A DNA stretch of 64,000 nucleotides. It comes from Pirellulales bacterium. GTDB lineage: Bacteria > Planctomycetota > Planctomycetia > Pirellulales > JAICIG01. The position numbers and the translations under genes were made by a program. The stretch spans positions 1 through 64,000 of the forward strand of contig JAICLL010000001.1 of NCBI GenBank assembly GCA_025927475.1, read 5' to 3'. Positions within the stretch are counted from its first letter, which is position 1; every line of letters begins with the position of its first letter. Below the pieces are notes generated by a model, which did not search any database, was not told the origin of the DNA, and worked only from the letters and a program-made list of their open reading frames with translations. Positions 1,358 through 6,164 of this stretch are shown here, one piece after another.

Positions 1358-2239
1358 ATGCGCTATTTCCAAATTGCCGTTTTTCTCGCCAGCGCTTTCG
1401 CGGCGGTCCCGCTGCTCGCCGTGGACTACGATCAGGTCGATCGTTCGATCGCCAGAGAGCCGAACTACCAATCGGATAAGCCGGGGTATGCCTTATTCCT
1501 ATTTGGTCAAAACGCCGAGCGACGGGCTTGGCTGGTCACCGATGGCGAAGTCGTCTATCTGGACCGCAACGGCGATGGCGATTTGAGCGCCGCAGACGAG
1601 CGATTTGCGAAGAGCGAGGATTGCAAGGACATCGAGATCGACGATCACGATGGTAACACGAAGTACGTGATTACGCAGTTGCGTATCCATCGCGACGAGA
1701 CGGGGAAGTATCCACCATCCGTGATGGCATACGTCACGATTCATGGCGCGACGGAATACAAGCAATACTGTGATGCCCAAATTGGCGCAAACGCGAAGGA
1801 CGCGGCCATCGCTCATTTCGGTGGGCCGCTGGCAATCGGTCCAAGAACCATTGATTGGAAAATTCCGCCAACCATGAAGCTCACGTCTGGGGATAAGCCG
1901 GCTGATTTGTACGTAATGATCGGCACGATGAGCGATCGTCACCATTGCTGGGTCGTCGTGGTCTCGCACGAGGGACAAACACAGTGCTCGTTCCCAGATG
2001 GCGTCCGTCCACTTGTCACCGTTGAATACTCTCCAAAAGACCCGGGCGGCGCAGCGATCACCCGGGAATACACGCTTGAGGGATTCTGCTGAGGCGCCTT
2101 GTTTCACGGCCCGGTGCGGGTCCCCGACGAAGCGGCGCTCGGCAAGGCGAAGGTCACGTTTTCCTTCGACGCTTGGTTGGAAGGCCGCGTCGCCCCAAGC
2201 ACGGTTGAGATCGATGTGGCGGCGCCCGACGGCGAATAG
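1358..2239 (+). CDS. Secreted protein with in-frame UGA; candidate selenoprotein
   Basis: The frame opens at ATG 1358 (GAGGGCCAGG just upstream) with a signal peptide (MRYFQIAVFLASAFA) and an EF-hand-like DRNGDGDLS loop around residue 70. A TGA at 2090-2092 ends a 244-residue product. The same frame then continues for 48 codons to TAG at 2237-2239 (293 residues if read through). The downstream part still looks like protein, with mostly G or C in third positions and a plausible beta-rich end (GPVRVPDEA, KVTFSFDAW). The UGA directly follows a Cys codon, giving Cys-Sec if decoded as selenocysteine. A hairpin follows at 2094-2138, and selA is at 4761-6164 on the other strand. The function is unknown. 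The alternatives are a true stop after residue 244 or a recent nonsense mutation, for example TGC to TGA. Confidence 0.55.
2093..2138 (+). promoter_or_regulatory. Possible bacterial SECIS hairpin after the UGA
   Basis: Immediately after the UGA, an outer stem pairs 2094-2098 with 2134-2138 (GCGCC against GGCGC). An inner stem of six pairs (2108-2113 with 2117-2122, including one G-U) closes a GUG loop at 2114-2116, so the apex reads GGUG about 22 bases past the UGA. Bacterial SECIS elements lie directly 3' of the UGA and carry a G-U in the apical loop, so position and shape fit. GC-rich DNA folds easily, so this is only suggestive. Confidence 0.35.
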
Positions 2240-2282: not shown

Positions 2283-3659
2283 ATGCATCGACGACTGTCT
2301 CCAATCCGCTGGCATGCGCCGCTCCTGCTGGGCCTGCTTGTGTCGGCCCCTGCCGCGGCGGCGAACGACTTCAACGTGGCGGAAGCCCGCAAGGCGGTAG
2401 TTTTTGTGCGGCGGATCACGCCGGGACGCGAGACGGCGCTGGGCTCGGGCTTTTTGGTCAGCGGCGATGGCGTGATCTATACCAGTCGCCATGTGATCGA
2501 ACCGAACGACGCCACCGCCCGGGGCACCGTGATTCTGGTGGGGGTGCCGTCGGCGGCCGACCCCGACGATCTCGATTGGTTCCCCGCCGCGGTGGCCTAT
2601 CAGCCGCCCGAGGGCGAAAAACTCGATTTCGCCCTGCTGAAGATCACCGCCCGGCAGAGCTATGGGCCATTTCACGCCCTGCCGCTTTCCTATGAAAAGC
2701 TCGAACTAGGCGCCAGCGTGGCCGTGATTGGCTATCCCTACATCCGCGAGAACGACGCGGTGCTTTCGTTCAACAAGGGCAGCATCTCCAGCACCCGCGT
2801 GCGGTTCAGCGGCAAAACCTATTATCAAACCGATGCCGCCGTGAATCAGGGCAACTCGGGCGGCCCGCTGCTGAACGTCCGCGGCGAAGCGGTGGGCATC
2901 GTCACGCTCAAGGAAATGAACGCCGAGAACGTCGGCTTCGCCCTTTACCTGAGCGAGATTCGCTCGGTCGCGGCTTCGGCTGCTCAGCGTGTGGCCAGTT
3001 TGCAGGCCCCGATCGGGCCGGTCGATCCGCGGCACCTCGACCTGCCGACGGTCATCGCTCCGCGCGCGACCGAGTGGAAGCTGGGCGCGGGTCGCCCGCG
3101 AGAGCAAGGCCGCCGGTTGGTGATCGACAACCACGGCGGCGCCTATTGGCTGACCAGCCGGGTGAGCCTGCCCGAAACCTTTCAGCTTGTCGTGCCGTGC
3201 GGCGTTGAATATCTGCAAGGTTCCGAGCCGATCAGCAACACACAGCAGCGCAGCCTGCGCAATATCTATGTGCGGTTTGCCGCCGCCAACCCGCAAGCAC
3301 CGCTGCCGCGCGGAGGCGGCTATCTGGTGCGATTCAGCCATTCGTCGCTCACTCTCTACCGCGACGGCAAGCCGGTGAAAAGCGTCGCCCAGGGCAACAC
3401 GCAGCAAAAGCCGCTCACGCTTTCGATCACCAAGCAGGCCGGCGATTTTGAAGTGGCCGTCGACGGCCGCGTGCTCATCAAGTGGCGCGATCCGCAGCCT
3501 TTGCCCGTGCGGCGGCCGTTTTCGGTGGGAGGGTATCTGTCGCGGATGTCGCTGGGCGAGGTGGCGGTGGTTGATCTGTCGAAAGAAGGATTCGGCGTTC
3601 GGAACGAGGCTTCAGGTCTCAGGGTTCAGGGTTCAGCGGCGGAGATCAAGGGTCGGTAG
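2283..3659 (+). CDS. Secreted trypsin-like serine protease with C-terminal beta domain
   Basis: The start at 2283 was chosen because it begins a clean signal peptide (MHRRLSPIRWHAPLLLGLLV, cleavage near AAAA-ND); the frame is open further upstream but not coding-like. The chymotrypsin-fold domain (about residues 30-240) has a complete triad: His70 in TSRHVIE, Asp115 in LDFALLK and Ser192 in GNSGGPLL. The remaining part to about residue 430 resembles a concanavalin-type sugar/ligand-binding fold (RDGKPVKSV, FEVAVDGRVLIKW). No PDZ domain is visible. Likely exported, acting in the periplasm or on surface proteins. The last 20 or so residues are encoded by a repeat-like CAGGTCTCAGGGTTCAGG stretch, so the tail may be read-through into former intergenic DNA. 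43 bases separate it from the end of the UGA-interrupted frame upstream. Confidence 0.85.
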   Translation: MHRRLSPIRWHAPLLLGLLVSAPAAAANDFNVAEARKAVVFVRRITPGRETALGSGFLVSGDGVIYTSRHVIEPNDATARGTVILVGVPSAADPDDLDWFPAAVAYQPPEGEKLDFALLKITARQSYGPFHALPLSYEKLELGASVAVIGYPYIRENDAVLSFNKGSISSTRVRFSGKTYYQTDAAVNQGNSGGPLLNVRGEAVGIVTLKEMNAENVGFALYLSEIRSVAASAAQRVASLQAPIGPVDPRHLDLPTVIAPRATEWKLGAGRPREQGRRLVIDNHGGAYWLTSRVSLPETFQLVVPCGVEYLQGSEPISNTQQRSLRNIYVRFAAANPQAPLPRGGGYLVRFSHSSLTLYRDGKPVKSVAQGNTQQKPLTLSITKQAGDFEVAVDGRVLIKWRDPQPLPVRRPFSVGGYLSRMSLGEVAVVDLSKEGFGVRNEASGLRVQGSAAEIKGR

Positions 3660-4760: not shown

Positions 4761-6164
4761 CTAGAGCGCCTCGCCATCGGCCAAGGCTCGCACCGCGGCG
4801 ACTAAATCCAAATCTTGCCGCGGAAACACGGTGCGAAGATCGAGATACAGCCGGTTCTCGTGTACCCGACCTACCACCGCGGGCCGGCCCGTTCGCAGCC
4901 GCGTGGCCAGTCGATCGACACTCATCTCGGCTGGCGTGAGGGCCACGCACCAGGTGGCCAGCTTTTGCGTGGGCAACGAGCCGCCGCCCAAGTAGGTGAT
5001 GTCTTCCAAAGGATCGGCCGAGGCGATCGCGCGGCAGTCGGCCATTTGCGGCGCCAACCGCTGCGCCCGCAAGCGCAGGTTTTCCAACGGCGTGCTGAGC
5101 AGATGCAATAGCGGCACCGCCTGCATCGCCTGCTCCGGATCGCGATAGAGCCGTAGCGTGGCGGCCAGGGCGGCCAACGTCAATTTGTCGACACGCAGGG
5201 CACGGGCGAGCGGATGCCGCAAAAGCTGCTCGACCAGCGACCGTTTGCCCACCGCAATGCCGCACTGCGGCCCGCCCAACAGCTTGTCGCCGCTGAACAG
5301 CACCAGGTCGGCCCCTTGCTTGACGCTTTCGCTCACCACCGGTTCGTCGCTGAAGCCGAAGCGGGCAAAATCAATCAACGCTCCGGAACCCACGTCGTGA
5401 ATCACCGGCAGCCCCTTGGCCCGCCCCAGCCGCACCAAGTCGGCCAGAGGTACGCTTTTGACGAAGCCCGACACTACATAGTTGCTCGGATGCACCAGCA
5501 GCAGGGCGGCGGTTCGGTCGCCAATGGCCTGCTCATAGTCCTCCAGCCGCGTCTTATTGGTGGTGCCGACCTCGCGCAGCACCGCCCCGCTGACCGTCAT
5601 GACTTCGGGCAGCCGGTAGCTGCCGCCGATCTCGATCAACTGCCCGCGGGAGACGATCACCTCGCGTCCGGTGGCCAGGGCGGCCAGGCTGAGCATGGTG
5701 GCGGCGGCGTTGTTGTTGAAAACCGCCGCGGCCTCGGCCCCGGTGGCCTCAGAAAGCAGTCCTTCGACGGCCAGCACCCGTTGCGAGCGGTGGCCGCTGA
5801 CCAGGTCCAGCTCGACACTGGCATAATCCTGGGCCACGGCGGCCATCTCGCCCAGGGCGGCCTCGGCCAGCGGCGCCCGGCCCAGCCCGGTGTGCAAGAG
5901 CACCCCGGTGGCGTTGATCACCGGGCGGAGCAGCGGCTTGTCGGTCTCCATAATTCGGGCGGCAATGCGCTCGGCCAGCTCGCGGACGTCGGGCAATTTG
6001 ACTTCGGCGGCCGCCGACTGCAGCTCGCTGCGCAGGTCGTCCAAAAACGACCGCACCCGCGTCACCACCACATGATGGCTGACCTTGGCCACCATGCCCT
6101 TCAGGGGCGGGCTTTCCAGGAGTTCGTTGACCGAGGGAAGATTACGAAAGAGGTTGGTTGCCAT
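4761..6164 (-). CDS. selA: L-seryl-tRNA(Sec) selenium transferase
   Basis: SelA is a cytoplasmic PLP enzyme that converts seryl-tRNA(Sec) to selenocysteyl-tRNA(Sec) using selenophosphate. The 467-residue length is normal for bacterial SelA. The N-terminal domain starts LFRNLPSVNELL (the LPSVDxLL-type motif). Also seen are NATGVLLHTGLGRAPL, the VFNNNAAA turn, EIGGSYRLPEVM, REVGTTNKT, HDVGSGALID and the Schiff-base lysine K294 in FSGDKLLGGPQCG. The gene is divergent from the ribosomal operon, with 115 bases between them. No selB, selD or tRNA-Sec gene was seen in the window. Its presence means the organism is expected to read some UGA codons as selenocysteine. Confidence 0.96.
   Translation of the reverse strand: MATNLFRNLPSVNELLESPPLKGMVAKVSHHVVVTRVRSFLDDLRSELQSAAAEVKLPDVRELAERIAARIMETDKPLLRPVINATGVLLHTGLGRAPLAEAALGEMAAVAQDYASVELDLVSGHRSQRVLAVEGLLSEATGAEAAAVFNNNAAATMLSLAALATGREVIVSRGQLIEIGGSYRLPEVMTVSGAVLREVGTTNKTRLEDYEQAIGDRTAALLLVHPSNYVVSGFVKSVPLADLVRLGRAKGLPVIHDVGSGALIDFARFGFSDEPVVSESVKQGADLVLFSGDKLLGGPQCGIAVGKRSLVEQLLRHPLARALRVDKLTLAALAATLRLYRDPEQAMQAVPLLHLLSTPLENLRLRAQRLAPQMADCRAIASADPLEDITYLGGGSLPTQKLATWCVALTPAEMSVDRLATRLRTGRPAVVGRVHENRLYLDLRTVFPRQDLDLVAAVRALADGEAL

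Follow-up and report, generated by a model that had tools for sequence, protein, structure and literature searches.

A candidate family of SECIS-directed selenoproteins with a neighbouring Cys-Sec site in Planctomycetota

A gene in the window, which is the whole stretch of 64,000 nucleotides of DNA that was analysed, appears to encode a selenoprotein and to represent an apparently new family among the SECIS-directed bacterial selenoproteins. From the comparison of related sequences, we put the probability that its UGA at residue 245 is read as selenocysteine at about 0.93. The initial annotation had proposed a single undescribed selenoprotein here; the proposal is supported, and the finding is larger than was claimed, as it concerns a family and adds a SECIS hairpin with compensatory changes. 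From its ATG at 1358 the frame runs to the Cys codon TGC at 2087-2089 and the TGA directly behind it at 2090-2092, and then goes on for 48 sense codons to the TAG at 2237-2239, as had been described, and the third-position G/C bias reported for the part after the UGA is likewise present (GC3 0.81 3' of the UGA, 0.65 5' of it). In the proposed mechanism, SelB together with Sec-tRNA(UCA) would bind a hairpin located 18-33 nt downstream of the UGA in the message, selenocysteine would be inserted at position 245 beside Cys244, and translation would resume to the TAG (Table 1). The window protein is an unfused form of the family with a probable signal peptide, by which it would be exported.

Table 1. 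Features of the candidate selenoprotein gene and the nearby selA in the window.
Feature	Position	Strand	Basis
Candidate selenoprotein gene, complete, 293 residues, predicted Sec at residue 245	1358..2239	+	ORF read with TGA as U; full-length homologue alignment; AlphaFold2
Probable Sec-type signal peptide, residues 1-22, MRYFQIAVFLASAFAAVPLLAV	1358..1423	+	Hydrophobic N-terminus; low pLDDT
EF-hand-like loop D69-R-N-G-D-G-D-L-S-A-A-D80, possible Ca2+ site	1562..1597	+	Pattern spotted by eye
Cys244-Sec245 pair (TGC TGA), proposed reactive centre	2087..2092	+	Cys-Cys or Cys-Sec in 12/12 first homologues
48 codons 3' of the UGA, predicted closing strands of the second beta-sandwich	2093..2236	+	Identity higher than in the part before the UGA; pLDDT
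bSECIS hairpin with GGCCC/GGGUC stem and GGUGC loop, separated from the UGA by 20 unpaired nt	2108..2122	+	Pairing, covariation, RNAalifold
selA, L-seryl-tRNA(Sec) selenium transferase	4761..6164	-	TIGR00474, 546 bits (cut-off 268)

Homologues carry UGA or Cys at the site in most cases. In the column aligned with the UGA, 81 distinct Planctomycetota homologues have UGA in 31, Cys in 38, other residues in 11 and a gap in one, and TAA or TAG in none, so that both the Cys homologues sought by the initial annotation and further UGA forms are found and ordinary stops are not. Similarity does not end by residue 244; it crosses the UGA and reaches the last codons of the window gene, and conservation is higher downstream of the UGA than upstream of it (79 homologues share on average 39% identity with the window protein in the downstream part and 27% in the upstream part). 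When the readthrough product was searched against all contigs of the genome, it yielded a paralogue on another contig that has UGA at the matching aligned position (37% identity) and, in addition, a Cys-Cys copy. An assembly slip is rejected because the UGA recurs at one column in many genomes. In the profile search, 66 of the 398 genomes of the class had family matches; named carriers include Gemmata, Fimbriiglobus and many Planctomycetota MAGs, the family also reaches outside the class, and no match was found in phage records. Cys stands at the UGA column in the sequences most closely related to the window protein (L005, L030, L085, L087), and on the family tree the Sec label needs 10 changes, at least six of them forced by well supported branches.

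The UGA form is accompanied by a remarkably regular RNA element. In 27 of 27 Cys-UGA members, positions +19 to +23 (with the U of UGA as 1) pair with +29 to +33 in a stem of 5 bp around a loop of 5 nt, xGUxx, of which the GU is invariant. With 10 more UGA sequences added from in and outside the class, pairing holds in all 37, that is in 185/185 cells; 13 cells are altered on both sides with pairing kept, and pair 22:30 is CG in 26, UA in 7 and AU in 4 sequences. The covariation score was reached by none of 500 shuffles, and slid controls were 12-66% paired. Without aid, RNAalifold predicts the same 5-bp stem, with a consensus core of -7.8 kcal/mol including the covariation term; the window hairpin gives -16.5 with its extended stem. 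A possible lower stem (columns 13-18 with 34-39) was also examined, and its pairing found no support. The published bSECIS model has a stem of 4-16 bp, a loop of 3-9 nt with G in one of its first two places, a spacing of 16-37 nt and an MFE of -7.5 or lower (PMC13188914), and the family hairpin fits it with 5 bp, 5 nt with G second, and 20 nt. None of the 31 Cys-Cys members has the hairpin, and pairing occurs in just 8-15 of these sequences per position.

The uniform 5-bp hairpin emerged once the sequences were aligned at the UGA. A generic search for local hairpins gave a mixed result because free folding chooses differing long stems: UGA members reached -11.4 kcal/mol against -8.7 for shuffled sequences, and Cys members showed no difference. 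As a pattern (TGA-N15-stem-loop) the element has one match in the window, where 0.01 would be expected, and four across the 6.88 Mb of the genome, against none in the reversed control. Two of the four matches are the family's two UGA members; the other two lie at G000:C150:41735-41767 (L180) and G000:C223:12017-12049 (L181). An Rfam scan of the window gave no match at gathering scores. In UGA members the hairpin encodes the peptide (H)GPVRVP, whose conservation is probably due largely to the RNA, since Cys members have mostly lost it.

The genome also has the machinery needed for selenocysteine insertion. The gene that the initial annotation had named selA, 2.5 kb from the window gene, is well above the cut-off of its model (Table 1), selB is likewise over cut-off, selD scores 289 bits, and a tRNA-Sec is found with 69 bits and the anticodon tca (tRNA-Sec(UCA)). 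This genome is a draft, 88.7% complete with 5.3% contamination, and the contig carries rps13, rps11, rpsD, rpoA and selA. selA and/or selB exceed the cut-off in 24/24 genomes with the UGA form, against 15/28 with other forms only (Fisher p = 6e-5, a guide only, as the genomes are related); class-wide, selA exceeds it in 159 of 298 genomes.

Were the UGA an ordinary stop, the product would have 244 residues and the downstream frame would be the remnant of a longer ancestor or a matter of chance. UGA does work as a stop elsewhere in the window, for example in rpoA, and the frame after it is only 48 codons long, but a stop fits poorly with a following part that is more conserved than the preceding one, with a column that holds UGA so often and never TAA or TAG, with compensatory changes in the hairpin, and with a structural model in which core strands would be lost if the protein ended at residue 244. 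Moreover, at least 10 UGA members have an open frame of 385-486 codons after the UGA, and WD40-type repeats are found in this part of the long members scanned (L032, L050, L052, L092), so these frames are not due to chance. The conservation after the UGA, the covarying hairpin and the WD40-type continuations lead us to reject the ordinary stop, which we consider extremely improbable. The same holds for decoding of the UGA as another amino acid, be it by reassignment to Trp or Gly or by simple readthrough: an open frame and the reassignment of UGA in some lineages would allow it, but the homologous site has Cys and not Trp or Gly, and the hairpin and the Sec machinery co-occur with the UGA form. 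Since rpoA and the first gene of the window end in TGA, the code is not reassigned in this genome, and paralogue L002 (G000:C236:70395-71249) uses one UGA in frame, as Sec, and a second one, 44 codons later, as its stop. On the strength of TGA-ended rpoA and this dual use, genome-wide reassignment is rejected, and any such decoding has very little left to recommend it.

Reading the UGA as selenocysteine also agrees with the predicted structure. The AlphaFold2 model based on 28 family sequences is all-beta, with a mean pLDDT of 88.9 and a pTM of 0.84, and pLDDT is about 93-98 across residues 241-290. The predicted fold consists of two tandem Ig/FN3-like beta-sandwiches and an EF-hand-like loop, and residues 246-293 supply core strands in the model, in which Cys244 closes a short strand and Sec245 opens the turn toward the next one. 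Across the 28 aligned members, D69, N71, G74, D75 and L76 of the loop do not vary and the pattern D-x-N-x-D-G-D-L is nearly invariant; the loop may bind Ca2+. No thioredoxin fold is seen in the all-beta model. Foldseek returned only weak multi-domain beta-sandwich matches in the PDB (Ig/FN3/macroglobulin type, TM about 0.2), and a PDB profile search with the family gave no match. Among the 28 domain members scanned against Pfam and NCBIfam, no family exceeded the cut-off, stray weak matches occurred in at most three members each, and none of the NCBIfam selenoprotein models was matched. The claim of the initial annotation that the protein is undescribed thus stands within the scope of the search, with no Pfam or NCBIfam family and no name in the catalogue of prokaryotic selenoproteins (PMC13188914). 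The family is apparently not included in this catalogue of May 2026, and an earlier listing elsewhere without a name is possible. An earlier study of planctomycetes reports selenoproteins from two Planctomycetes (PMC4807772).

As for the function of the site, the neighbouring pair suggests that it most likely works in the periplasm as a redox switch or a thiol/selenol site, at about even odds, in which Cys and Sec would make and break a selenenylsulfide. Neighbouring thiol/selenol pairs are also good binders of soft metals, and the inserted Sec might instead serve with Cys to bind Hg, Cu or Cd in a sensor or scavenger that does not switch. Related motifs in the family (CU, UxCC, UxUC) and the lack of any enzyme-like fold or family found would suit such a role, as would the catalogued metal-binding CU selenoprotein MbdU and the CU proteins SaoL and HgcA, which are tied to mercury or organometal chemistry (PMC13188914), and the CorE-type ECF sigma factors, which detect metals through Cys-rich extensions (PMC8999054). 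On the other hand, no third ligand near the pair is conserved in the alignment and no recurrent neighbours suggesting metal resistance stood out, the neighbour families not having been identified, and metal binding seems rather doubtful. Still less probable is an enzyme, either a peroxidase or a thiol oxidoreductase of exported proteins: such a role would be in line with the majority of characterised selenoproteins, which are oxidoreductases (PMC13188914), and with the strand-turn boundary at which the modelled pair lies, but neither a thioredoxin or peroxidase fold or family nor a conserved partner enzyme nearby was seen. Among the loci examined, no conserved neighbour genes of the family were found that include the neighbours of the window gene. 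Directly downstream of the window gene, on the same strand, lies a gene for an HtrA/DegP-like trypsin-type protease (2283-3659, +), which is not conserved beside the family members in these loci.

The C-terminal GCUG of mammalian thioredoxin reductase contains an adjacent Cys-Sec-Gly that is able to form a selenenylsulfide. The planctomycete family shares the neighbouring Cys-Sec-Gly, but its pair is embedded in a predicted beta-sandwich some 50 residues before the C-terminus, and the family has neither FAD/NADPH domains nor a sequence relation to that enzyme. With the bacterial SECIS-directed selenoproteins, for which E. coli fdhF serves as the model, it has in common the UGA, a hairpin close behind it with a small loop and an early G, a spacing within the 16-37 nt of the bSECIS model (PMC13188914), Cys homologues, and selA, selB, selD and tRNA-Sec. 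It differs from them in having no Pfam or NCBIfam model, in an unusually uniform hairpin (5-nt xGUxx at 20 nt) and in the coincidence of this hairpin with the peptide motif GPVRVP. Catalogued bacterial selenoproteins with a CU motif include SaoC, SaoL, HgcA, MbdU, KCU-star and the CopZ-like 2Fe-2S form 2 (PMC13188914, Table 1); the adjacent Cys-Sec is shared with these, whereas fold and architecture differ. If the reading as selenocysteine is correct, a widespread family would be added to the prokaryotic selenoproteome, in a phylum whose use of selenium is little studied, and gene models shortened or split at the UGA would be corrected. The tight hairpin that coincides with GPVRVP would offer a simple signature for finding further members, and relatives that differ in having Sec, Cys or another residue at this position would be a good natural test of the advantage of Sec over Cys.

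In several members the domain is part of a larger protein. Pfam Sigma70_r2 and r4_2 are found over cut-off upstream of the domain in L041, L050, L056, L058 and L060, and in all five a hydrophobic span lies between the sigma regions and this domain. L050:3110-6166, from a Fimbriiglobus sp. MAG (the same gene as L091), combines in a single frame the ECF sigma70 r2/r4 regions, the hydrophobic span, the Cys-UGA domain and WD40-type repeats; its Cys-UGA domain carries a perfect SECIS (GGCUCGGUCCGAGCC), so that it may be a selenocysteine-containing sigma factor. In L041, L056, L058 and L060 (mostly Gemmata), ECF sigma-70 r2 and r4 are fused to the domain, and the site has Cys-Cys, T-C, G-S or G in place of Sec. 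Like the ECF sigma system taken for comparison, several members have the domain behind sigma-70 regions 2/4 and a hydrophobic span and before WD40-type repeats; the middle Cys-Cys/Cys-Sec domain is not described for that system, and the window gene encodes the unfused form with the probable signal peptide. In the fused relatives, the domain would hang outside the membrane on the ECF sigma factor and act as a sensor. As a tentative suggestion, the family could serve Planctomycetota as a selenium-based module for extracytoplasmic sensing, in which secreted and membrane-bound ECF sigma forms would detect oxidants or soft metals on the outer side of the membrane through their Cys-Sec pair. If this were true, the fused form would be a transcription initiation factor that contains selenocysteine, and the fusion would link selenium directly to gene regulation.

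The site itself varies among members. Some members lack a Cys at the first position, with R-C in Gemmata as well as G-U, D-U and U-S forms, so the Cys-Sec pair is not needed in every member. Replacement of this first Cys in several members contrasts with a second position at which Sec or Cys is more often retained, and the second position is therefore probably the essential one. UGA without a preceding Cys (U-S, D-U, G-U and others) is found in L040, L042, L115, L117, L129, L130 and L162, several of which have one extra codon ahead of the hairpin. L047 (=L125) has a U-S-U-C motif with two UGA codons two apart and the hairpin downstream of the last one, and L043 (=L108) has U-S-C-C with the hairpin downstream of its UGA. 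In distant relatives elsewhere in the phylum (L164, L166, L167, L174, L176, L177), a GGCxCGG-type motif (such as GGCGCGG or GGCACGG) lies near the place equivalent to the UGA and is perhaps a Cys-rich cousin of the Cys-Sec site.
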